Shown here one piece after another: positions 1,363-12,359 of a stretch of 51,396 nt of DNA. Made by a program: the position numbers and the translations under genes. How positions within the stretch are numbered: the first letter of the stretch is position 1; every line of letters begins with the position of its first letter. Under the pieces are notes generated by a model. It saw nothing but the letters and a program-made list of their open reading frames with translations, ran no database searches and had not been told where the DNA came from. Origin of the DNA: Oscillibacter sp. (GTDB lineage: Bacteria; Bacillota; Clostridia; Oscillospirales; Oscillospiraceae); NCBI GenBank assembly GCA_022652815.1, contig JALCRR010000010.1, forward strand, positions 1 through 51,396, written 5' to 3'.

Positions 1363-2718
1363 TCAAAGCGGCAACTGTGCCCGTAGCTTCTCCCGGAAGT
1401 CGGGATGGGCAATGGCAATCAGCGCCTCCGCCCGCTCTCGGACGGATTTATATTTTAGGTTGGCAACGCCATACTCCGTCACCACATATTGCACCCAGGT
1501 GCGGGGTGTGGTGACGATGCTAGCCACGGGCAGCTGGGGCAGGATTTTGGAGTGCAGCGCGCCCTGATTGTCGGTATAGGTGGAGCGCAGGGCGATGATG
1601 CTCTTGCCGCCCTTGGACCACTGGGAGCCGATGACCCATTCCAGTTGGCCGCCGGTGCCGGAGAACTGCCGCGAGCCGATGCTCTCGGCGTTGACCTGAC
1701 CGGTTAGTTCGATTTCCATGGCGTTGTTGATGGAAACCACATGGTCGTTGCGGGAAATGCTCCGGGGATCGTTCACCCAGTCGATTTCCTTAAAGGAGAA
1801 GGTCGGATTGTCCTTTGCGAAATTCCACAGGTCCTTGTCGCCCACAAAGTAAGCGCCCACGCAGCGGCCGGGATGATCCTGCTTGCAGCGGTTCGTGATA
1901 ACGCCTTTTTTCATCAGATCGACCACGCAGTTGCTGATAACCTCGCTCTGAAGTCCCAGATCCTTCTTTCCCGCATACGCTAAGTTGGAGCCGATGGCAT
2001 TGGCGAGGCCACCCAGACCGAACTGGACACAGCTGCCGTTGTCCACCAGATCGGCGATGTAGCCGGCGATTTTGGCATCCGTCTCGTCCGAACTTGCCGG
2101 GGGCGTCTCCAGCGGGGGATGACTGTTTTCAATAATGCCGTCCACCTCGGAGATGTGGAGCATCATGTGGCCGTCACCCTCACTGACAAACGAGGGGAGC
2201 TGATCGTTGATCTCCACCAAGAGCACATCGCACGCATCCAGTACGCTGCGATGCAGCTGGGCGCCCCAGAGGCTGCGGCTCATCCAGCCGTTTTCGTCCG
2301 GAGCCGAGCAGGAGATCACTACCACCCGGGGCTTCCGGGCGGCAATCCAGGCGCCCGTGGCACTCAGATTGGTGGGGCAGAACACCAGATTGCCCTGCTT
2401 GGCATACTTGCGTTCGCCGCCGGCAAAGAAGTTAGAGCGAAAAAGAACTTGACTTTTCAGCTCCGGCGCCAGCAGGTCGTAGGGCTGCAGCACGAACAGG
2501 GAATTAACCTCCACATGGTCTCCCGTGGTTTTTAGGCGCTGCGCCAGAGCCGTATCAAAGGCCGACGGCCAGTTTGCCGCACCGGTCATTCCCAGCACAT
2601 CACCGCCGCGCACCAAGGTCGCCGCTTCGTCCGCAGTCATCCGCAGGGCGGCGTACGCCTTGTGCCAGTCGGTCATTCCCGCCAGCTTGCCGCGGCGGGT
2701 TGGAATCAGCTTTTGCAT
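1363..2718 (-). CDS. Class I acyl-CoA transferase/hydrolase
   Basis: This 451-residue protein belongs to the acetyl-CoA hydrolase/4-hydroxybutyrate CoA-transferase family, which moves CoA between acyl-CoA and acetate or another acid through a glutamyl-CoA intermediate. The likely catalytic glutamate is E259 in the LQSEVISN segment, and the family's GTGGQLEWVIGS and GGKSI motifs are present near residues 345-360. The length is normal. The ATG at 2718 has a GGAGG eight bases upstream; M15 is a less likely start. It is a single-gene unit with its own promoter, operator and terminator. Substrate cannot be fixed from sequence. Butyrate- or 4-hydroxybutyrate-type transfer are both possible, as is acetyl-CoA hydrolase activity. 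Confidence 0.85.
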   Translation of the reverse strand: MQKLIPTRRGKLAGMTDWHKAYAALRMTADEAATLVRGGDVLGMTGAANWPSAFDTALAQRLKTTGDHVEVNSLFVLQPYDLLAPELKSQVLFRSNFFAGGERKYAKQGNLVFCPTNLSATGAWIAARKPRVVVISCSAPDENGWMSRSLWGAQLHRSVLDACDVLLVEINDQLPSFVSEGDGHMMLHISEVDGIIENSHPPLETPPASSDETDAKIAGYIADLVDNGSCVQFGLGGLANAIGSNLAYAGKKDLGLQSEVISNCVVDLMKKGVITNRCKQDHPGRCVGAYFVGDKDLWNFAKDNPTFSFKEIDWVNDPRSISRNDHVVSINNAMEIELTGQVNAESIGSRQFSGTGGQLEWVIGSQWSKGGKSIIALRSTYTDNQGALHSKILPQLPVASIVTTPRTWVQYVVTEYGVANLKYKSVRERAEALIAIAHPDFREKLRAQLPL

Positions 2719-2750
2719 TAGGTTTTCCTCCGAGTCATCGTTTCGCAGTA

Positions 2751-2771
2751 ATACAACATCAATTGTTGTAT
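2751..2771 (-). promoter_or_regulatory. Palindromic operator of the CoA-transferase gene
   Basis: ATACAACA and TGTTGTAT form a perfect 8-bp inverted repeat with a 5-base spacer. It lies at about +3 to +23 relative to the predicted transcription start, where a bound repressor would block elongation or polymerase escape. No regulator gene is adjacent. Confidence 0.6.
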
Positions 2772-2780
2772 GATGTCGTT

Positions 2781-2809
2781 ATTATATCGCATTTTCTGCC
2801 AAAAATCAA
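2781..2809 (-). promoter_or_regulatory. Promoter of the CoA-transferase gene
   Basis: On the minus strand TTGATT (2804-2809) and a perfect TATAAT (2781-2786) are separated by 17 bases. Confidence 0.75.
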
Positions 2810-2848
2810 CCCAGCCCGCAAGTTTACAGGAAATTAAGATTTACAGGA

Positions 2849-2878
2849 TTGCTTTTTAATATGGTAGCGTGCTATGAT
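2849..2878 (+). promoter_or_regulatory. Promoter of the phospholipase C-like gene
   Basis: TTGCTT (2849-2854) and TATGAT (2873-2878) are separated by 18 bases and sit 30 bases before the TTG start. Confidence 0.6.
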
Positions 2879-2907
2879 ACATTCAGTTTTATTGTTGGAG
2901 GTGTATT

Positions 2908-3456
2908 TTGCAGAAACGAAGCCATAAACTGTTGGCCCGTACGCTGCTTGACGGCTGCGCCGGCTTTTCCAAAAAGCGGTTTGAGCTTGCTTTTGTATTC
3001 GGCTCTTTTCAGCCGGACTGCAATCCCCTTTCTTACCTGAAGGGATCCCTCCGGGCGAAAAAGCTGATGGGACATAATTATTCCAACTCTCAGCGCTACA
3101 TTGACGCCCACATTGACCGGCTTCAGCGCCGCAACCGCTGGACCATCTGGCAGTATTACACACTGGGGAAGCTGACCCACTATCTGGCCGACGCCTTCAC
3201 CTTTCCCCACAACGACACCTACCCCGACTCTCTGGTGGCTCATCGGCACTACGAAGATGCGCTGCGGTGCGATCTTGCCGCTTATCTGAAAAATCGTTCG
3301 CCCGTTCGGGAACGTCCCCAGCAGAATGCGGCTGCCGCCATTGACAACCTGCATCGGCTTTATCTGGATGTGGCCTCTGACCGTCAGCGGGATATTTTTT
3401 ACATTCTGGAGGCCAACAGTCTTTTGATGGCCAGCGTGCTTCCGGCAGGAGCTTGA
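2908..3456 (+). CDS. Zinc-dependent phospholipase C-like protein
   Basis: This 182-residue protein resembles the short zinc-dependent phospholipase C/S1-P1-like proteins common in Clostridia. Metal-binding candidates are visible in order: H6 near the N-terminus, the FGSFQPDCNP segment (about residues 31-40), GHNYSNS (about 55-61), and GKLTHYLADAFTFPHN (about 88-103), where several His and Asp residues line up as in the family. No signal peptide is seen, so a cytoplasmic location is likely. The start is a TTG with GGAGG six bases upstream. It stands alone with its own promoter. The true substrate is unknown and the family call rests on the His/Asp pattern. Confidence 0.7.
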   Translation: MQKRSHKLLARTLLDGCAGFSKKRFELAFVFGSFQPDCNPLSYLKGSLRAKKLMGHNYSNSQRYIDAHIDRLQRRNRWTIWQYYTLGKLTHYLADAFTFPHNDTYPDSLVAHRHYEDALRCDLAAYLKNRSPVRERPQQNAAAAIDNLHRLYLDVASDRQRDIFYILEANSLLMASVLPAGA

Positions 3457-3537
3457 ATTTTGACAAATTGATGCATCCGCAGGCTGACGGATTGTGGTTG
3501 TTTGTCTGATTTGTCACTTTTCTTTTCCGAGAAGCTG

Positions 3538-3546
3538 TGTTATGCT
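3538..3546 (+). promoter_or_regulatory. Possible extended -10 promoter of the aro operon
   Basis: TGTTATGCT fits an extended -10 element with only a weak TTTTCT 17 bases upstream. It would start the transcript near 3552, about 30 bases before the leader peptide. Confidence 0.4.
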
Positions 3547-3581
3547 TTAAACATCTAAAGAGTCCACAGGAGTAACAAAAC

Positions 3582-3680
3582 ATGACGAACATCACCCGTG
3601 CAGCTGAATACCGCTACTTTAGCTTTACCTATTTTTATGGTAAGGCTTATTTCGGTTTGGCTGAAAACGTGTGTGACTGA
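3582..3680 (+). CDS. Tyr/Phe-rich leader peptide of the aro operon
   Basis: This ORF encodes 32 residues behind an AGGAG (3568-3572) nine bases upstream of ATG. Residues 10 to 24 hold five Tyr (10, 12, 17, 19, 23) and four Phe (13, 15, 18, 24), so 9 of 15 are aromatic, and there is no Trp. The composition is like that of PheL-type leader peptides, in which ribosome stalling on scarce charged tRNA controls transcription. It is followed by a strong terminator and then by aroF. The peptide itself probably has no function beyond sensing tRNA-Tyr and tRNA-Phe charging. Confidence 0.9.
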   Translation: MTNITRAAEYRYFSFTYFYGKAYFGLAENVCD

Positions 3681-3745
3681 AGAAACTGCCGCGAAAGACA
3701 GTATGCTCAGGACCCGCAGCCGAACGAAGGCTGCGGGTCTTTTTT
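3601..3745 (+). promoter_or_regulatory. Ribosome-mediated transcription attenuator
   Basis: Four segments give competing pairings. Segment 1 (3601-3609) can pair with segment 2 (3655-3663) in nine pairs, three of them wobble. Segment 2 can instead pair with segment 3 (3717-3725) in nine pairs, one wobble. Segment 3 overlaps the 5' arm of the terminator (3711-3721 with 3729-3739). A ribosome stalled at Tyr/Phe codons between 3609 and 3640 would cover segment 1, free segment 2 to hold segment 3, and allow readthrough. A ribosome reaching the stop at 3680 would cover segment 2 and let the terminator form. The pairings are hand-derived; the mechanism is inferred from the trp/phe attenuator model. 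Confidence 0.85.
3711..3745 (+). terminator. Attenuator terminator before aroF
   Basis: Perfect 11-bp arms GACCCGCAGCC and GGCTGCGGGTC with a 7-base loop are followed by six Ts. It lies between the leader peptide and aroF, not at an operon end. Confidence 0.92.
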
Positions 3746-3772
3746 GTATGTATTTTAAGGAGGAAAAAAATT

Positions 3773-4786
3773 ATGATCGTCATTCTGAAATCGAACCCCA
3801 ATCGGGACCAACTGGAAAGCTTAATTACCTGGCTGCAGGAAAAGGGCATCACCATCCACACCAGCATCGGCGAATCCCACACCATCCTCGGTCTCGTAGG
3901 TGACACCTCCGCCCTGGATATTGATTTGATTGCCGCCCTAGACATCGTGGACGACGTCAAGCGCGTTCAGGAGCCTTACAAGAATGCAAACCGCAAGTTT
4001 CATCCCGCCGACACCGTGGTCAAGGTTCGCGACACCCAGATCGGCGGCGGCAACCTCACCATCATGGCCGGCCCCTGCTCCGTCGAGTCCGAAGAGCAGG
4101 TCGTGACCATCGCCAAGGCTGTGAAGAAGAGCGGTGCCACCATGCTGCGCGGCGGCGCTTTCAAGCCCCGCACCTCCCCGTACTCCTTCCAGGGTCTCGG
4201 CGCCACCGGCATCGAGTACTTGAAGGCCGCCCGGGAAGAGACCGGACTGCCCATCGTCACCGAGCTGATGGATCTTTCTCAGTTGCCTCTTTTCAAGGAC
4301 GTGGACGTGATTCAGATCGGCGCCCGCAACATGCAGAACTTTGATCTTCTCAAGGCTGTTGGCCGTCAGGAAAAGCCCGTGATGATTAAGCGCGGCATGT
4401 CCGCCACCTACGAGGAGTGGCTGATGAGCGCCGAATACGTCATGGCCGGCGGCAACCAGAACGTCATCCTCTGCGAACGCGGCATCCGCACCTTTGAGAC
4501 CTATACCCGCAATACGCTGGATCTTGCCTGCATTCCCGTGCTGCGCAAGCTGACCCACCTGCCCATCATCATCGATCCCAGCCACGCCACCGGCAAGAGC
4601 TGGCTGGTCGATCCCCTTGCCACCGGTGCAGTGGCTACCGGCTGCGACGGACTTCTGATCGAGGTACACAATGACCCTGCGCACGCACTGTGCGACGGCC
4701 CCCAGTCCTTGAAGCCCGAGGTGTTCGACGCTCTGGCGCACAAGCTGCTCAAACTCCATGCGTGCATGCGCGATCTGGAGGCATAA
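3773..4786 (+). CDS. aroF: DAHP synthase (3-deoxy-7-phosphoheptulonate synthase), type I-beta
   Basis: This 337-residue enzyme joins phosphoenolpyruvate and erythrose 4-phosphate, the entry step of the shikimate pathway. Residues 1-75 form a ferredoxin-like regulatory domain of the kind found in Thermotoga-type enzymes, which suggests feedback control by aromatic amino acids. The catalytic barrel carries AGPCSVES (about 99-106), RGGAFKPRTSPYSFQG, KRGMSAT and IDPSHATG, all family signatures for PEP, metal and phosphate binding. ATG follows an AAGGAGG. It is the first structural gene behind the Tyr/Phe attenuator, so it appears to be regulated both at transcript and enzyme level. tyrA follows after three bases. 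Confidence 0.95.
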   Translation: MIVILKSNPNRDQLESLITWLQEKGITIHTSIGESHTILGLVGDTSALDIDLIAALDIVDDVKRVQEPYKNANRKFHPADTVVKVRDTQIGGGNLTIMAGPCSVESEEQVVTIAKAVKKSGATMLRGGAFKPRTSPYSFQGLGATGIEYLKAAREETGLPIVTELMDLSQLPLFKDVDVIQIGARNMQNFDLLKAVGRQEKPVMIKRGMSATYEEWLMSAEYVMAGGNQNVILCERGIRTFETYTRNTLDLACIPVLRKLTHLPIIIDPSHATGKSWLVDPLATGAVATGCDGLLIEVHNDPAHALCDGPQSLKPEVFDALAHKLLKLHACMRDLEA

Positions 4787-4789
4787 ACG

Positions 4790-5626
4790 ATGAATGTCGG
4801 CATCATCGGTCTGGGGCTGATCGGCGGCTCTATGGCCAAGAGCATCAAGGCCCGCACGGGTCACACCGTCTGGGGAATTGATCTGGACCATGAGACCATG
4901 ACCATGGCCCGGATGTGCGGCGCCATCGACGCCCCCCTGACGGACGAAAACCTCCCGCAGTGTGATCTTGTGATGATTGCCCTCCGGCCCCAGGCAATTA
5001 TCGACTGGGTGACAGCCCATGCGGACAAGCTCTCCCAAGGGGCCATTCTGGTGGATCTGTGCGGCGTGAAGCGCACGGTGGTAAACGCGCTGGCTCCCAT
5101 TGCCGAAGCCCGCGGCTTCTCCTACATTGGCGGTCATCCCATGGCCGGCAAGGAGCGGGGCGGCTTTGTCAACGCAACGGACGATCTGTACGCAGGCGCA
5201 TCCATGATTCTGACGCCGGACGATCGGACGGATCTTCCGCTTCTGGAAACGCTGAAGGCGTTTTTCCTGGATCTTGGGTTTGCCACGCTGACCTTCTCGA
5301 CTCCCGAGGAGCACGACCGCATCATCGCGTACACCTCCCAGCTGGCGCATATTACTTCCAGCTCCTACATCAAGTCCCCGGAGGCACAGCGCCGCCGCGG
5401 ATTTTCCGCTGGAAGCTTTCAAGACATGACCCGTGTTGCCCGACTGGACGAGGACATGTGGACCGAGCTGTTTTTGGACGATGCGGACTATCTGACAGAC
5501 GAAGTGGAAGAGCTGGTCTCCCACTTGAATGAGTATCTGGACGCTTTGAAGCGCCGGGACGCTGAAAAGCTCCACGCGCTGCTGAAAGACGGCCGCGAGA
5601 AAAAGGCCTCCGCCGGCGGAAATTGA
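4790..5626 (+). CDS. tyrA: Prephenate dehydrogenase
   Basis: This 278-residue protein oxidises prephenate to 4-hydroxyphenylpyruvate, the tyrosine branch. The N-terminus has the nucleotide-binding GLGLIGGS motif (residues 7-14), and the GGHPMAGKE segment near 113-121 matches the prephenate site. No chorismate mutase or ACT domain is attached; the mutase for this operon is in pheA. It starts three bases after aroF. Its stop codon lies inside the left arm of a palindromic repeat (5620-5663), so the element abuts or has inserted at the gene's 3' end. The last few residues (about RKEKKASAGGN-like) may be altered by that. Confidence 0.93.
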   Translation: MNVGIIGLGLIGGSMAKSIKARTGHTVWGIDLDHETMTMARMCGAIDAPLTDENLPQCDLVMIALRPQAIIDWVTAHADKLSQGAILVDLCGVKRTVVNALAPIAEARGFSYIGGHPMAGKERGGFVNATDDLYAGASMILTPDDRTDLPLLETLKAFFLDLGFATLTFSTPEEHDRIIAYTSQLAHITSSSYIKSPEAQRRRGFSAGSFQDMTRVARLDEDMWTELFLDDADYLTDEVEELVSHLNEYLDALKRRDAEKLHALLKDGREKKASAGGN

Positions 5627-5670: not shown

Positions 5671-5715
5671 GCGGCGCGATTGGCGGGTACGTAGTGCCCG
5701 GGAATCGCATTGCCG
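5671..5715. repeat. Long imperfect hairpin between tyrA and aroB
   Basis: GCGGCG-CGATT-GGCGGGTAC on the left pairs imperfectly with GTGCCC-GAATCG-GCCGC on the right around a 3-base loop. Together with the flanking palindrome it makes a strongly structured stretch in the operon mRNA. Confidence 0.55.
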
Positions 5716-5754
5716 CGACGGTGTGCAAGAATTGACGAAGCGCCGCCACGTCGT

Positions 5755-6001
5755 CGCAAGCTGCGCATCCTTCGATTCCGGCTGCGCCGAAATCTCTCTC
5801 GCTCCGCTGCTCCTCCTTTTCGCACCACACCCGCTGCGCTGGGCTGTGGCGCGAGGAATATGGGGAACGTACGCAAGCTGCGCATCCTTCGATTCCGGCT
5901 GCGCCGAAATCTCTCTCGCTTCGCTGCTCCTCCTTTTCGCACCACACCCGCTGTGCTGGGCTGTGGCGCGATGGATTTAGGGAACGCACGCAAGCTGCGC
6001 A
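5755..6001. repeat. Tandem 117-bp repeat, two copies plus a partial third
   Basis: Unit 1 (5755-5871) and unit 2 (5872-5988) begin with the same CGCAAGCTGCGCATCCTTCG and differ at only a few places; a third copy starts at 5989 and breaks off after 13 bases. The period is a multiple of three and the units lack stops in several frames, which makes long false ORFs on both strands. It fills most of the 416-base gap between tyrA and aroB, inside an otherwise tightly packed operon. It looks like an intergenic repeat family and not a protein. Confidence 0.88.
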
Positions 6002-6042
6002 TTTTGATTCATCATTCTTTTAAGCAAAGGAAGGTGCCAAAT

Positions 6043-7113
6043 ATGGCAAGCACGCTGAAAACAGTGGACATTCATGTAGAAAACGGCTACCGCGTGGTCA
6101 TCGGCGGCGGACTGCTGGCGCAGTGCGGACAAATACTGGCAGACGTCGTCGGTCTTTGTCATGCTGCCGTCATTGCGGATTCCACCGTGGCTCCGCTGTA
6201 TCTGGGCACCGTGGAGCAGTCCCTGCGCGATGCAGGCTACTGCGTCTCCTCTTATATCTATCCGGCTGGCGAAGCGCAAAAAAATCTCACAACGCTTTCT
6301 GACATTCTGGAATTTCTGGCGGCGGAGCATCTGACCCGTACTGACTGCGTCATCGCCCTAGGCGGCGGTGTGTGCGGCGATATGGCCGGCTTCGCCGCCG
6401 GCTGCTATCTACGGGGAGTGCGGTTTGTGCAGCTGCCCACCACGCTGCTCGCTGCGGTGGACTCCTCGGTAGGTGGCAAAACAGCGGTAGATTTGAAGGG
6501 TGGAAAGAATCTGGCAGGCCTCTTTCTCCAGCCCTCCGCCGTGTTGTGTGACACGGACTGTCTTTCCTCTCTGCCGCCGGAGATATTCGCCGACGGCGCC
6601 GCCGAGGCAATTAAGACCGGCGTGCTGTCCGACGAGGGGCTGTTTCGCCTCTTCGACACCGACAACTTAACTGGAGATCTTTCCGAGATGATTCACCAGT
6701 GCATCGCGTTTAAAGGCCGGGTTGTGGAAGATGACGAGTTCGACACCGGACTGCGCCGGACGCTGAATCTGGGGCACACGGCAGGACACGCCATTGAAAA
6801 GTGCGCCAAGTTTACGATTTCCCACGGGCATGCGGTGGCAATCGGCATGGTGATCATTGCCCGGGCTGCGGAAAAGCTGGGCTGGTGTCAAGAATCCTGC
6901 GCCGATCGCATTGCCGCAGTGCTTAAGCGCAACGCGCTGCCGGTTTCCACGAACTTTTCCGCCGCAGAACTTGCTGACGCGGCGCTTTCCGACAAGAAGC
7001 GCACCGGCGGAACCATAACGCTGGTGGTTCCCGAGAAAATTGGAACGTGCTGCTTGAAAACGATCCCAGTGGATCAGCTGCAAGACGTATTTGAAGCCGG
7101 ACTGGAGGAATAA
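6043..7113 (+). CDS. aroB: 3-Dehydroquinate synthase
   Basis: This 356-residue NAD- and metal-dependent enzyme turns DAHP into 3-dehydroquinate, the second shikimate step. Family motifs are visible: YPAGEAQKNL, ALGGGVCGDMAGFAAGCYLRG, PTTLLAAVDSSVGGKTAVD, and the zinc-binding LNLGHTAGHAIE and SHGHAVAIGM with their histidines. The frame is open far upstream through the repeat block, but the ATG at 6043 is chosen because AAGGAAGG precedes it and MASTLKTVD is a normal AroB N-terminus. aroA begins one base after its stop. No separate promoter is evident, so it depends on readthrough from the aroF attenuator. Confidence 0.95.
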   Translation: MASTLKTVDIHVENGYRVVIGGGLLAQCGQILADVVGLCHAAVIADSTVAPLYLGTVEQSLRDAGYCVSSYIYPAGEAQKNLTTLSDILEFLAAEHLTRTDCVIALGGGVCGDMAGFAAGCYLRGVRFVQLPTTLLAAVDSSVGGKTAVDLKGGKNLAGLFLQPSAVLCDTDCLSSLPPEIFADGAAEAIKTGVLSDEGLFRLFDTDNLTGDLSEMIHQCIAFKGRVVEDDEFDTGLRRTLNLGHTAGHAIEKCAKFTISHGHAVAIGMVIIARAAEKLGWCQESCADRIAAVLKRNALPVSTNFSAAELADAALSDKKRTGGTITLVVPEKIGTCCLKTIPVDQLQDVFEAGLEE

Positions 7114-7114
7114 G

Positions 7115-8371
7115 ATGGACATCCGGATTACCCCAGGCACTCTGTCCGGCGAGCTTCGCGCCATTCCTTCCAAGTCGGACGCCCACCGAAAGCTGATTCT
7201 GGCGGCGCTGGGGGATTGCCCCACGGTGCTGCATCTGCCGAAATTTTCCGCAGATATTCAGGCAACAGCGGACTGCTTAGCCGCACTGGGTGCAAAAATT
7301 GACCGTCGGGGACAGCTGGTTGCCGTCTCCCCCATCCAGTCCGTGCCGGAAAACCCTCTGTTGGACTGCGGGGAATCCGGCTCCACCCTGCGGTTTTTGC
7401 TGCCGGTGGCGGCTGCTTTGTGCGGCTCCGCCCGATTTACCGGGCGGGGGCGTCTGCCCGACCGTCCCATCGGCGAACTGAAGTCCGCCATGGAATCTCA
7501 CGGGGTGACGTTCTCCGCGCCGAAGCTCCCCTTTACGGTTTCCGGAAAGATGACCGGCGGAGCATTTTCGCTTCCCGGCAATGTGTCCTCCCAGTATATT
7601 ACGGGGCTGCTGCTGGCACTGCCTCTGCTGGGTGAGGACAGCGTTTTGACGTTGACAACGCCGCTGCAGTCTGCGGCCTATGTGGATATTACGCTCCGGG
7701 CGCTGGAGCAGTTTCAGATTCAGGTGGATGCACAGGACGGATGCTACCGGATTCCCGGGAGGCAGTGCTGCTCCTCCCCCGGCATTTTGAACGTAGAGGG
7801 CGACTGGTCCAACGCCGCCTTTTTCCTTACGGCAGGTGCGCTGGGCGCAGCGGTAACGCTGACAGACCTGGACGGCACGTCTCCCCAGGGCGACAAGGCG
7901 ATTGTGAACGCCCTGCGCACCTTTGGTGCCGACGTCCAGGAGGCCGACTCCGCCGTCACCGTCTCGCCTGCACCCTTGACGGGCTGCACCGTAGACATAT
8001 CCGGCATCCCCGATGCGCTGCCGATTCTCTCCGTTTTGGCTGCCTGTGCCGCAGGCACCACCCGATTTATCAACGCGGGGAGACTCCGGCTGAAGGAAAG
8101 TGACCGGCTGAAAACCACCGCAGCCATGCTGACCGCGCTGGGTGGGAATGTGGAAGAGCGTCCCGACGAGCTACTGATCCACGGCGGAACGCCGCTGGTG
8201 GGCGGAACCGTGGATGGCGCCAACGACCACCGCATTGTGATGGCGGCAGCGATTGCCGCCGTGCGCTGTGCCGGAAGCGTAACCATTCTGGGCGCCGAAG
8301 CTGTCAACAAATCCTACCCGTCGTTCTTTGACGATTACTGCGCTTTGGGAGGTATTGCACATGAGCTCTGA
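7115..8371 (+). CDS. aroA: 5-Enolpyruvylshikimate-3-phosphate synthase
   Basis: This 418-residue enzyme transfers enolpyruvyl from PEP to shikimate 3-phosphate. Visible motifs are SKSDAHRKLI near the N-terminus, LDCGESGSTLRFLLP, the sugar-phosphate contacts GRLPDRPIGEL, SSQYITGLLLALP and the C-terminal RLKESDRLKTTA. The residue after the conserved LDCGESGSTLRF glycines is the region that separates glyphosate-sensitive from tolerant classes, but I do not assign a class. ATG at 7115 follows GGAGGAATAAG. The 3' end overlaps the aroC start by 11 bases, indicating coupled translation. Confidence 0.95.
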   Translation: MDIRITPGTLSGELRAIPSKSDAHRKLILAALGDCPTVLHLPKFSADIQATADCLAALGAKIDRRGQLVAVSPIQSVPENPLLDCGESGSTLRFLLPVAAALCGSARFTGRGRLPDRPIGELKSAMESHGVTFSAPKLPFTVSGKMTGGAFSLPGNVSSQYITGLLLALPLLGEDSVLTLTTPLQSAAYVDITLRALEQFQIQVDAQDGCYRIPGRQCCSSPGILNVEGDWSNAAFFLTAGALGAAVTLTDLDGTSPQGDKAIVNALRTFGADVQEADSAVTVSPAPLTGCTVDISGIPDALPILSVLAACAAGTTRFINAGRLRLKESDRLKTTAAMLTALGGNVEERPDELLIHGGTPLVGGTVDGANDHRIVMAAAIAAVRCAGSVTILGAEAVNKSYPSFFDDYCALGGIAHEL

Positions 8372-9455
8372 ATTCGGAAAAATTCTGCGCGTCAGCGTTT
8401 TTGGCCAGTCCCATGGAAAGGCCATCGGCGTGAACATGGACGGGCTACCTGCCGGGGAAGCCATTGACGTTGAGGAGCTACAGGCCTTCTTGAACCGCCG
8501 GGCACCGGGCCGCAACGCCCAGTCCACCGTGCGAAAAGAGGCCGACCAGCCCATCTTTCTCTCCGGCGTAGAGGATGGCAAAACCTGCGGCGCGCCCCTG
8601 TGCGCCATCATTGAAAACAGTGACCAGCACTCCTCCGACTACGAGGAGCTGCGGGACAAGCCGCGTCCCTCCCATGCCGACTATACGGCGTGGGTCAAGT
8701 GGGGCGGACAGGCTGATATGCGGGGCGGCGGTCATTTTTCCGGTCGGCTGACCGCGCCGCTGTGCATTGCCGGCGGCATTGCCAAGCAGATTCTCGCCCG
8801 CCGGGGAATTCATGTGGGCGCGCATCTCGCCTGCGTGGGAACGCAGAGCGACGCACTTTTCCCTCTGTACCCCACGGCAGAGGCGTTTGCCGCCATTGCC
8901 GAAAAGCCGTTTCCCGTCATCGACGACGCGTGCGGTGAGCGTATGAAGGCCGCCATTGCCGACGCTGCCGCCGAGGGCGACAGCATCGGCGGCGTGATCG
9001 AATGTGCGGCCATCGGCCTGCCTGCCGGGATCGGCTCCCCCATGTTTGAGGGTGTGGAAAACCGGCTGTCTGCGGCCATTTTTGGGATTCCCGCCGTTAA
9101 GGGTCTGGAATTCGGCGTCGGGTTTACCTCCGCCAAGCTGCGCGGCAGTGAAAACAACGACCCCTTTACCGTAGAGGACGGAACCATCAAAACGACATCC
9201 AACCGCGCGGGCGGAATTTTGGGCGGCATCACCACAGGAATGCCTGTCACGCTGCGGGTTGCCATCAAGCCCACGCCGTCCATTTCCCGTCCCCAGCAAA
9301 CCGTGAGCCTTTCCAAAATGGAACAGGCCGAGCTTGTCATTCGCGGCCGCCACGACCCCTGCATCGCACACCGGGCTGTTCCGGTGGTGGAGGCGGTCAC
9401 GGCCTGCGTATTACTTGATATGATATTGGAGGAAACACCCCATGGAATTGAATGA
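8361..9455 (+). CDS. aroC: Chorismate synthase
   Basis: This 364-residue enzyme uses reduced FMN to make chorismate from EPSP. The N-terminal FGQSHGKAIGVNMDGLPAG segment, ADYTAWVKWGG with GGGHFSGRLTAP, and the C-terminal RGRHDPCIAHRAVPVVEA segment are diagnostic. The start at 8361 (GGGAGG upstream) overlaps aroA and its 3' end overlaps pheA by 14 bases. A separate supplier of reduced flavin would be needed if the enzyme is monofunctional, as is usual in bacteria. Confidence 0.95.
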   Translation: MSSEFGKILRVSVFGQSHGKAIGVNMDGLPAGEAIDVEELQAFLNRRAPGRNAQSTVRKEADQPIFLSGVEDGKTCGAPLCAIIENSDQHSSDYEELRDKPRPSHADYTAWVKWGGQADMRGGGHFSGRLTAPLCIAGGIAKQILARRGIHVGAHLACVGTQSDALFPLYPTAEAFAAIAEKPFPVIDDACGERMKAAIADAAAEGDSIGGVIECAAIGLPAGIGSPMFEGVENRLSAAIFGIPAVKGLEFGVGFTSAKLRGSENNDPFTVEDGTIKTTSNRAGGILGGITTGMPVTLRVAIKPTPSISRPQQTVSLSKMEQAELVIRGRHDPCIAHRAVPVVEAVTACVLLDMILEETPHGIE

Positions 9456-10578
9456 AATTCGCAACCAGATTGACTCGGTGGACGACCAGCTGCTCAAGTT
9501 ATTCCTGGAGCGCATGGATCTGGCCGAAGAAGTTGCCGCCTATAAAAGCGAACACACGCTGCCGATTTTAAACAAAGAGCGGGAGCGCGCCGTGCTCGCC
9601 AAGGTCACGGAGAATTCCGGTGACAAGGAACGCTATGCCTACCATCTGTTTTCCACGCTTTTTGAGCTGGCCCGCTCCCGTCAGGCAGAGCTGCTCTGTG
9701 CGCCCACGAAGGTGGAAGCCCAGGTGAACGCCTCTTTGGCCGCAGGCAGTGAAGTATTTCCCCAGACGGGGCTGGTTGCCTGTCAAGGTGTGGAGGGTGC
9801 CAACTCTCAAGCCGCCTGCGACCGCATCGTGCCCCGGGGTAACATCGTCTATGTCAAGAGTTTTGAGGCGGTGTTCGCCGCCGTGGAATCCGGGCTGTGC
9901 AAGTTTGGCGTACTGCCTATTGAAAACAGCTCCAACGGCTCTGTCCGCGCGGTGTATGATCTCTTGCAGCGCAAGCATTTCTCCATTGTCCGCTCCACCC
10001 GCCTGTGCATCCGCCACGAGCTTTTGGCGCTGCCCGGTGTGAAAGCGGAGGACATCACGGAGATTTACTCCCACGAGCAGGCCATCGGCCAGTGCTCCAA
10101 GTTTTTGAATGGTCTTGGCGGCGTGCATGTGATTCCCTGCGACAACACCGCCACTGCTGCCAAGATGGTCGCCGAGAGTGGAAACCGCCACGCGGCAGCC
10201 ATCTCCTCCCACGTCTGTGCGGAGCTGTACGGCCTTAGCCCCCTAAACGACAACATTCAAGACAGCGACAACAATTACACCCGCTTTATCTGTATCACCA
10301 AGGACCCCGCCATCTACGCCGGCGCCAACCGCATCAGCTTGATTATCGCCTGCGACAACAAGCCCGGCGCACTGTACGACATTCTTTCCAAGCTGGCGGC
10401 GCTTGGCATTAACATGACAAAGCTGGAATCCTGCCCCGTGACGGGTCGGAACTTCGAGTTCATCTTCTTCCTGGAGCTGGAGGCCAGCGTTCAAGAGCCG
10501 GGCGTTCTGCCCATGCTGGAGGAGTTGGAGCGCTCCTGCCAAAGTTTCCAGTTCCTCGGCTCCTACGCAGAAATCTAA
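9442..10578 (+). CDS. pheA: Chorismate mutase-prephenate dehydratase (P-protein)
   Basis: This 378-residue fusion makes prephenate and then phenylpyruvate. Residues 1-90 are an AroQ-type chorismate mutase (EIRNQIDSVDDQLLKLFLER at the start). Residues 105-285 are prephenate dehydratase with QGVEGANSQAA, LPIENSSNGSV and the NNYTRF catalytic motif. The last 90 residues are an ACT domain for phenylalanine feedback, with PGALYDIL, but the usual ESRP motif reads ESCP. That change might alter feedback strength. The protein gives tyrA its prephenate, so it serves both branches. It overlaps aroC and is followed by aroE/K after three bases. Confidence 0.94.
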   Translation: MELNEIRNQIDSVDDQLLKLFLERMDLAEEVAAYKSEHTLPILNKERERAVLAKVTENSGDKERYAYHLFSTLFELARSRQAELLCAPTKVEAQVNASLAAGSEVFPQTGLVACQGVEGANSQAACDRIVPRGNIVYVKSFEAVFAAVESGLCKFGVLPIENSSNGSVRAVYDLLQRKHFSIVRSTRLCIRHELLALPGVKAEDITEIYSHEQAIGQCSKFLNGLGGVHVIPCDNTATAAKMVAESGNRHAAAISSHVCAELYGLSPLNDNIQDSDNNYTRFICITKDPAIYAGANRISLIIACDNKPGALYDILSKLAALGINMTKLESCPVTGRNFEFIFFLELEASVQEPGVLPMLEELERSCQSFQFLGSYAEI

Positions 10579-10581
10579 ACC

Positions 10582-11826
10582 ATGGACGCAAAGATTTACG
10601 GCCTTTTGGGCCGGACACTGGGGCACAGCTGGTCAGTGCCGATTCACAAGGCGCTTGGATGTGACAGCTACCAGCTTTATGAGCGGGAACCGGAGGCCGT
10701 GGCGGCCTTGCTGGCTCAGAGCAATCTGGGCGGGCTGAATGTGACCATCCCCTACAAGCGCACCGTCATGCCGCTTTGCGATGAGATTGATGAGGCGGCA
10801 CGGGCCATCGGCGCAGTGAACACCTTGGTGCGACGAGCAGACGGGAAGCTGTACGCCTACAACACGGACGCCGCCGGCTTTTGCTACATGGCAGGCCGCG
10901 CTGGAATCGACTTTGCAGGTGCCAAAGCCGTGATTCTTGGCAGCGGCGGTGCCTCCCTAACGGCGCAGGCCATGTCGCGCAAGCTGGGGGCGCGGGAAGT
11001 CGTGGTGATTTCCCGCGCCGGTGCGGACAACTACGGCAATCTGGAGCGCCATGACGACGCTGACATTGTGGTCAATACCACGCCCGTGGGCATGTATCCC
11101 CGGTGCGGCGAGGCAGCCGTCGATCTGACCGCCTTCCCGAAATGCCGGGGCGTGCTGGACGTGATCTACAATCCCCGGCGGACGGCGCTTCTTCTTCAAG
11201 CGGAGGCGCTGGGCATTCCGTATTCCGACGGGCTGCCAATGCTGGTTGCCCAGGCAGTGGCGGCGGAGGAACATTTCTTTGAAAAGTCCATTTCCGCTTC
11301 GGAAACAGAACGGATTTTGTCCAGTCTTCGCCGGGAAATGACCAATATCGTCCTCATCGGAATGCCCGGCTGCGGAAAAAGCACCGTCGGTGAGGCGCTG
11401 GCTCATCTGACAGGCCGGGAAGCCATCGACATTGACGCTGAAATTGTGAAGCGTGCCGGAAAATCCATTCCCGACATCTTTGCGAGTGAAGGAGAAGCCG
11501 CTTTTCGCGCTTTGGAGCGAGAGGAAACAGCCCGGGTGGGTGCGCTCTCCGGAAAGATTATTCTCACCGGCGGAGGCGTTGTAAAGGATCAGAGAAACAA
11601 TGCTCCGCTCCGGCAGAACGGACGCATTTATGAGCTGCAGCGGCCTTTGGACTTGCTGCCCACCGATGGACGTCCCCTGTCTCAAGGCGCCGATCTTGCG
11701 GCGATGGCCCGGGAACGGGCACCGCTGTATGCCCGGTTCCGGGATGCGGTGATTGACAACACCGGCACGGTGGAAGAAACTGCCGAGAAGGTTTGGAGGG
11801 ATTTTTGTGAACATTCTGGTACTTAA
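10582..11826 (+). CDS. aroE-aroK: Fused shikimate dehydrogenase-shikimate kinase
   Basis: This 414-residue protein joins two consecutive pathway enzymes. Residues 1-250 are AroE: the shikimate-binding S-x-S in LGHSWS, the catalytic lysine in NVTIPYK (K59), NTDAAGF, and the NADP loop GSGGAS (120-125). Residues 253-414 are AroK: Walker A GMPGCGKST (260-268), the shikimate-binding DIDAEI, TGGGVV, and the lid with DGRPL. The AroE domain is slightly short. The junction around residue 250 has an in-frame ATG (11338) but no clear ribosome site, so a real fusion is likelier than two genes. Substrate could pass directly from one domain to the other. Confidence 0.93.
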   Translation: MDAKIYGLLGRTLGHSWSVPIHKALGCDSYQLYEREPEAVAALLAQSNLGGLNVTIPYKRTVMPLCDEIDEAARAIGAVNTLVRRADGKLYAYNTDAAGFCYMAGRAGIDFAGAKAVILGSGGASLTAQAMSRKLGAREVVVISRAGADNYGNLERHDDADIVVNTTPVGMYPRCGEAAVDLTAFPKCRGVLDVIYNPRRTALLLQAEALGIPYSDGLPMLVAQAVAAEEHFFEKSISASETERILSSLRREMTNIVLIGMPGCGKSTVGEALAHLTGREAIDIDAEIVKRAGKSIPDIFASEGEAAFRALEREETARVGALSGKIILTGGGVVKDQRNNAPLRQNGRIYELQRPLDLLPTDGRPLSQGADLAAMARERAPLYARFRDAVIDNTGTVEETAEKVWRDFCEHSGT

Positions 11827-12241
11827 CGGGCCGAATCTCAATATGCTGGGCATCCGGGAGCCGGATATTTACGGACACGCGACCTATGCCGATCTGTGCG
11901 GGATGATACAGGGAGAGGCGGATCGTCTGAGTGTCAGCGCGGAATTTTACCAGTCCAACCACGAGGGCGATCTGGTGGATGCCATTCAGGGCGCTTACGG
12001 CAAAAAGGACGGCATCATCATCAATCCCGCCGCCTATACCCACACCAGCGTCGCTCTGCTGGACGCAGTGAAGGCCGTGGGCATTCCCACGGTGGAGGTT
12101 CACATCTCTGACCCCGATCAGCGGGATGAGTTCCGGAAGGTGTCCTATATTCGCAAGGCCTGTGTCGCCACCATCAAGGGGCACGGGCTTGAGGGCTATC
12201 TGGAGGCGCTGCGCCTGCTGTGTGCAAACAAAACAGTCTGA
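11807..12241 (+). CDS. aroQ: Type II 3-dehydroquinate dehydratase
   Basis: This 144-residue enzyme removes water from 3-dehydroquinate to give 3-dehydroshikimate. LVLNGPNLNMLGIREPDIYG at the N-terminus, YQSNHEGDLVD, the catalytic-loop tyrosine region, INPAAYTHTSVAL and EVHISDP are classic type II features. The start is a GTG at 11807 with TTGGAGGG seven bases upstream; it overlaps the aroE/aroK 3' end by 20 bases. It is the last gene of the operon and completes the pathway. Confidence 0.95.
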   Translation: MNILVLNGPNLNMLGIREPDIYGHATYADLCGMIQGEADRLSVSAEFYQSNHEGDLVDAIQGAYGKKDGIIINPAAYTHTSVALLDAVKAVGIPTVEVHISDPDQRDEFRKVSYIRKACVATIKGHGLEGYLEALRLLCANKTV

Positions 12242-12322: not shown

Positions 12323-12359
12323 AAAAAGCAGACGCGCCCAAAAGGCGCGTCTGCTTTTT
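12323..12359. terminator. Bidirectional terminator, aro operon and HAD gene
   Basis: Perfect 16-bp arms AAAAAGCAGACGCGCC and GGCGCGTCTGCTTTTT lie between convergent genes, with T-runs on both strands. Confidence 0.92.

Follow-up and report, generated by a model that had tools for sequence, protein, structure and literature searches.

A probable leader-peptide attenuator rich in Tyr and Phe codons upstream of the aroF operon in Oscillibacter and other Clostridia

Results

The shikimate-to-Phe/Tyr operon and its host

The window analyzed here, a 51,396-nucleotide stretch of an Oscillibacter sp. contig (JALCRR010000010.1), carries eight genes on the plus strand that were identified by family matches and run from aroF to a dehydroquinase gene: aroF (DAHP synthase, 3773..4786), tyrA (prephenate dehydrogenase, 4790..5626), aroB (3-dehydroquinate synthase, 5710..7113), aroA (EPSP synthase, 7091..8371), aroC (chorismate synthase, 8328..9455), pheA (chorismate mutase-prephenate dehydratase, 9442..10578), an aroE-aroK fusion (shikimate dehydrogenase and kinase, 10582..11826), and a type II 3-dehydroquinase (11753..12241). 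An earlier sequence-only reading had described a shikimate-to-Phe/Tyr operon of nine enzyme activities; the operon stands, with the family names giving about 10 activities in the eight genes instead. In aroB, the family match covers the open reading frame (ORF) only from residue 127 onward, which places the true start of this gene near 6044-6090. Within the operon, the stretch separating tyrA from aroB holds a tandem repeat of 117 bp (2.1 copies, 94% matches, 5755-6002). Downstream of the last gene, a 17-pair inverted repeat (12323..12359) is listed as a minus-strand terminator for a convergent gene and may possibly also end the aro operon on the plus strand.

The nearest named AroF sequences are those of Candidatus Oscillibacter excrementavium (91%) and Oscillibacter valericigenes Sjm18-20 (88%), by which the former description of the host as a Clostridium-type genome is corrected to Oscillibacter-like. 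Neither trpE nor trpD was found in this genome, which is 96% complete, and the trpE search was positive in all 14 control genomes. Hence, the operon is probably devoted to Phe and Tyr.

Leader ORF, terminator, and alternative pairings ahead of aroF

Upstream of aroF, a 32-codon ORF at 3582-3680 on the plus strand reads MTNITRAAEYRYFSFTYFYGKAYFGLAENVCD up to its stop codon and is preceded, nine bases ahead, by a ribosome-binding site (AGGAG, 3568..3572). As described in the sequence-only reading, five Tyr and four Phe codons fall within 15 codons, namely codons 10-24 of this ORF, with control codons Y10, Y12, F13, F15, Y17, F18, and Y19 followed by Y23 and F24. The locus in this respect resembles leader-peptide attenuators, in which a short ORF with its own ribosome-binding site is rich in codons for the amino-acid products of the operon. 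A probable extended -10 promoter element, TGTTATGCT, was recognized by eye at 3538..3546; it was not picked up by a sigma-70 scan, and a similar TG-N-TAT/TAC-N-CT block occurs at this position in several close relatives.

A further characteristic of such attenuators, an intrinsic terminator between the leader ORF and the first structural gene, is present at 3709..3741 on the plus strand, with a U tract at 3740-3745. With 13 pairs, nine of them GC, it ranks first among the six terminator-like sites in 2700-4200, a region for which shuffled sequences average 1.7 such sites, and so bears out its earlier description as strong. In the attenuation of Escherichia coli pheL and trpL, the strand logic is one of mutually exclusive hairpins, and the same arrangement can be drawn here. 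Strand 1 (3601..3609) forms the outer helix of a hairpin with strand 2 (3655..3663), with all nine base pairs present and at least three of them G-U. Strand 2, as the 5' side of an antiterminator, pairs in turn with strand 3 (3717..3725), which overlaps the 5' arm and loop of the terminator, over nine of nine base pairs, and the 3:4 pairing of the terminator itself (3711-3721 with 3729-3739) has 11 of 11. Within the 1:2 hairpin lies an inner helix of 3621..3629 with 3639..3647, which was absent from the pairings first proposed. The RNA at 3570-3780 folds with z = -4.39, and none of 200 shuffles is equally stable. The leader ORF, the terminator, and the three-way pairings are thereby confirmed as first described.

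None of 4227 Rfam families reached its gathering score at the locus, the weak matches up to E = 10 being unrelated, and the T-box model (RF00230) gave no match in the window, nor at 3480-3800 up to E = 10. A search of the leader DNA against plasmids returned no match. A second DNA match to the leader in the same genome (contig C44) was rejected, as it reflects only a likeness in the Shine-Dalgarno (SD) region, ahead of a gene read by eye as EF-P.

Phe/Tyr-rich leaders in relatives

Regions upstream of aroF were collected in three sets: the host family (110 loci; 159 of the 200 genomes had a match), named organisms (80 loci, partly overlapping the family set), and the class (105 loci; 109 of the 147 genomes had a match). 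The class set was assembled partly by hand, from the 29 loci with the best scores, 40 taken across families (with four genomes represented twice), and 36 completing the list; six matching class genomes were dropped, four with a hit start at residue 61-82 and two with no listed location. Loci with less than 230 nt of upstream sequence were left out, two each from the family and named sets and one from the class set.

In the combined family and named sets, 118 of 181 distinct regions contain an SD-preceded ORF with at least six Phe plus Tyr codons per 15, as against 0/181 reverse complements and 8/905 dinucleotide shuffles under the same rule. A second rule, which excludes TTG starts and ORFs more than 350 nt upstream, finds an SD-preceded ORF, again with six or more Phe plus Tyr codons per 15, 5' of aroF at 83/108 family, 49/78 named, and 49/104 class loci. 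The corresponding counts are 0/324, 1/234, and 0/312 for plain shuffles (0/636 for family and class together) and 0/108, 0/78, and 1/104 for reverse complements. Within the class sample, the leader occurs at least once in 27 of 45 families. Across the sets, leader and terminator are found together at 170 distinct loci. O. valericigenes Sjm18-20 carries the same kind of leader upstream of its aroF, MSTFTFAAEYRYFSFTYYFGKAYFGLAENECV (L129). Judged from sequence comparison, the leader element is far commoner than the first reading supposed.

All 174 distinct leaders obtained with the second rule, identical ones being counted once, contain at least one Phe and at least one Tyr codon, 161 have at least two of each, and 34 contain Trp. 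The run of Phe and Tyr codons is tied to the ORF frame, with a mean of 8.1 compared with 2.1 and 2.7 in the other frames and stops in 0/181 compared with 54 and 111, a comparison to be read with the selection of the leaders for in-frame Phe and Tyr in mind. Among the nine closest leaders, a codon-position test shows no coding signal (12, 12, and 15 variable of 26 positions each), as would be expected under an additional constraint at the RNA level.

The leaders fall into more than one sequence type. A second type, ...SFxFTFGWARFMxAGFFGM..., often with a Trp codon, was seen at seven family loci (L056, L072, L085, L095, L097, L102, and L111), where it has a different conserved terminator (CTCATTGAT...ATCAATGRG) and precedes another AroF group of the same family (AroF start MVVVMKP or similar). 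A third, ...FSWGYYFSAGYFxCKK..., was found at six class loci (L225, L229, L245, L249, L273, and L307), some with Trp and often with a terminator containing GAGACTC or GGCTC downstream; this type possibly reads Phe, Tyr, and Trp. At L015 and L136, which represent one contig stretch, aroF encodes a close AroF relative (71%), and the upstream region is an open reading frame with no leader or terminator.

Covariation of the antiterminator

The 2:3 pairing was examined in 30 loci of the group nearest the window, leaving out L016, which gave no terminator, and L017, which lacked an anchor. Because the MAFFT alignment (A2) misregisters the 5' arm of the terminator, the test was performed on anchored segments, with strand 2 placed by a sequence motif and strand 3 by the terminator register, both blind to their pairing. 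Of 280 cells, 221 pair, where permuting strand 3 gives a mean of 195.6 (sd 4.0), and 23 cells are doubly changed, where permutation gives 7.2 (sd 2.4); neither value was reached in 2000 permutations. For pairs showing a double change, the observed count was reached in 6 of 2000 permutations, and for pair types, a less striking measure, in 40 of 2000. An antiterminator exclusive with the terminator, as leader-peptide attenuators possess, is thus kept by covariation. Conservation in relatives had been proposed as the check on the sequence-only reading, and both the Phe/Tyr-rich leader ORFs 5' of aroF and the antiterminator pairing show it.

Duplex energies across the wider sample agree in direction, with native 2:3 duplexes averaging -15.7 kcal/mol compared with -11.7 for swapped partners (136 loci), and with the duplex better than 95% of shuffles at 72 of these 136 loci. 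For single loci, significance is reached at only 80 of 170, and the window locus taken alone is not significant, being equaled by fractions of 0.10 and 0.44 of the swapped partners and by 0.13 of the shuffles. Strand 2 begins a median of 32.5 nt past the median Tyr/Phe codon and 16.5 nt ahead of the stop codon (80 significant loci), and follows that Tyr/Phe codon at a distance of 15-45 nt at 80% of these 80 loci and 74% of all 170, compared with 44% of shuffled controls.

The 1:2 hairpin, which in leader-peptide attenuators holds the control codons, is present in the window and is kept less evenly among relatives. Across 26 relatives, its outer helix, the one proposed at the outset, is only partly maintained (66.2% of cells paired), and the inner helix is the best-kept part, with 95.3% of cells paired and little variation. 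Covariation of the outer helix relative to shuffles is modest (5/500 for pairs, 34/500 for cells), and one slid control had more doubly changed cells.

Modeling of ribosome positions

In ribosome-mask folding, the ribosome edge was set 12-15 nt beyond the first A-site base. With strand 4 not yet made, a stall at any of the seven Tyr/Phe codons between codons 10 and 19 yields a predicted 2:3 probability of 0.89-0.93. With the ribosome at F24 or at the stop codon this value is predicted to fall to 0.00, and at Y23 it is 0.28 or 0.00. Stalls at the non-aromatic codons 2-9 would likewise free strand 2 in the model. Once strand 4 is present, equilibrium folding gives the terminator a probability of 1.00 in every state; hence, antitermination by this route would have to be kinetic. 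With neither ribosome nor strand 4, 2:3 (0.47) competes with 1:2 (0.38), so that the model alone does not predict termination for an untranslated leader.

T-boxes and leaders at aroF

The host genome contains 15 T-box matches elsewhere, 10 of them above the Rfam cut-off. Read by eye, these (L113-L127) precede genes for AGCS, the Gly-, Val-, Leu-, Ile-, Phe-, Tyr-, His-, Thr-, and AlaRS, AsnB, BCAT, a TrpB-like protein, an ABC substrate-binding protein, and CysE.

A T-box scan of aroF upstream regions covered 80 of the 104 class loci and none of the family or named loci. It found 17 loci with a T-box only, 31 with a leader only, none with both, and 32 with neither, an exclusion with a Fisher p of 0.00012 that ignores kinship. 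Fourteen of the 17 T-box hits reach the Rfam gathering score, with L238, L239, and L299 below it; a T-box match at L245 on the strand opposite aroF was excluded from the counts. Loci scored as "neither" under the second leader rule include L272 and, in part, L291 (Tyr-rich ORFs at -442 and -350), as well as L287 and L301 (five Phe plus Tyr codons). On these scans, T-box and leader exclude each other at aroF in the class. The T-box resembles the leader in serving aroF in other class members and differs in binding tRNA directly.

Trp codons and trpD

The leader in the window lacks Trp, which fits the absence of trpE and trpD matches from its genome. Where a leader has Trp within or close to the run, trpD accompanies it in 9 of 13 cases in the class and 8 of 15 in the family, compared with 14 of 39 and 13 of 76, respectively, for leaders lacking Trp (Fisher p 0.054 for the class and 0.005 for the family, ignoring kinship). 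Eleven of 28 Trp leaders belong to genomes with no trpD match. The tendency of Trp in the leader to go with trpD is suggestive only. In the family, trpD was found in 22 of the 97 genomes searched, which hints at frequent Trp auxotrophy.

Discussion

Taken together, the leader features support the attenuation interpretation first put forward from the sequence, and we consider it very probable that the locus is a ribosome-mediated transcription attenuator of the trp/pheL type, through which the supply of charged Tyr-tRNA and Phe-tRNA controls aroF-tyrA-aroB-aroA-aroC-pheA-aroEK-dehydroquinase. With Tyr and Phe both ample, the leader ribosome would reach the stop codon (3678-3680) and cover strand 2, and terminator 3:4 would form. 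With either in short supply, the ribosome would stall at one of the Tyr/Phe codons between 10 and 19 and occupy strand 1, so that strand 2 could pair with strand 3 ahead of the synthesis of strand 4 and transcription would proceed into the operon. Translation of the leader, stalling, and kinetic antitermination are the inferred steps of this scheme, and control by Tyr as well as Phe is suggested by the codons. Because the Tyr and Phe codons share one frame, a shortage of either should open the switch, and the cell probably bases further synthesis on the levels of both amino acids together.

The alternative that survives best retains the same attenuator and has it respond in practice to Phe alone, with the Tyr codons as passengers or fine-tuning. 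Its precedent is the aroR leader ahead of aroF in Corynebacterium glutamicum, which, in the cited passages, shares with the present leader the Phe and Tyr codons ahead of a DAHP synthase gene and attenuation by stalling, and which, reading Phe-Tyr-Phe, is induced by Phe limitation and unaffected by Tyr availability (PMC11802643, PMC4046766). As described there, aroR has three control residues compared with nine here and belongs to an actinobacterium (PMC11802643, PMC4046766). Four Phe codons also occur in the window's leader, three of them within the productive stretch, but Tyr accounts for four of the seven productive codons, is kept at least once in 174 of 174 distinct leaders (161 with at least two Tyr and two Phe), and matches the presence of tyrA besides pheA in the operon, which makes a response to Phe alone unlikely.

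A leader that works otherwise, as a ribosome-arresting nascent peptide or a functional small protein ahead of a plain 5' terminator, is far less probable. The conserved C-terminal block GKAYFGLA among the closest relatives might suggest a function of the peptide itself, but RNA pairing accounts for this block, which overlaps both the inner helix and strand 2, and at L009 and L011 the ORF stops ahead of the block, yet the sequence of strand 2 persists downstream of the stop codon. The peptides, moreover, diverge widely outside the Phe/Tyr run and have zero matches in NCBIfam or Pfam. That a T-rich stretch merely happens to be open ahead of an ordinary terminator has a negligible probability. 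T-rich DNA does favor Phe codons, and 8/905 shuffles do reach six Phe plus Tyr in 15, but 118/181 real regions carry the leader, with frame specificity and 2:3 covariation.

The mechanism proposed for the Tyr/Phe leader is classical ribosome-mediated attenuation. E. coli pheL (pheA) and trpL (trp) share with it the logic of leader codons, mutually exclusive hairpins, and a terminator. Each serves one amino acid and one terminal branch (PMC11802643), whereas Tyr and Phe, and the common pathway with both branches, would be served here. Closer in gene context is the uORFC-13-1 motif, described from Acholeplasma and environmental sequences only (24 representatives), in which a uORF with at least one Phe codon is followed by a terminator and aroF; sensing of Phe incorporation is proposed for it and, in the cited text, no reading of Tyr (PMC8632094). 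A leader peptide in the place where other Firmicutes carry a T-box also has a parallel in the bacilli, where His leader peptides precede hisS/hisZ, differing as described there in amino acid, in the synthetase genes served, and in lineage (PMC2965389). We found no description of a Tyr/Phe aroF leader in Clostridia among open-license PMC papers. What seems new is the breadth of such leaders in the T-box-rich Clostridia, together with the joint reading of Tyr and Phe.

A broader proposal, which we see as evenly balanced between right and wrong, is that Clostridia-wide aroF attenuators read several aromatic amino acids per leader (Tyr and Phe, and in some lineages Trp), with the set following the synthesis that each lineage retains, and that they alternate with the T-box, such that regulation at this one point has changed over between sensing tRNA directly and stalling the ribosome. 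A possible reason is that a single leader peptide can integrate two or three tRNAs, whereas one T-box reads one. If the proposal holds, the shikimate pathway of many Clostridia, including gut species, would be under a single multi-input RNA switch that has no Rfam match at the locus studied here, and T-box and leader peptide could be compared at one gene inside one bacterial class. The leader sequence would also report which aromatic amino acids a lineage senses, for comparison with its auxotrophies. Phe/Tyr-rich ORFs with a terminator also precede aroF in three records titled as Victivallales, Kiritimatiellae, and Lentisphaerae MAGs (L147, L172, and L196), an occurrence under the labels of other phyla that may reflect horizontal transfer, convergence, or wrong binning.
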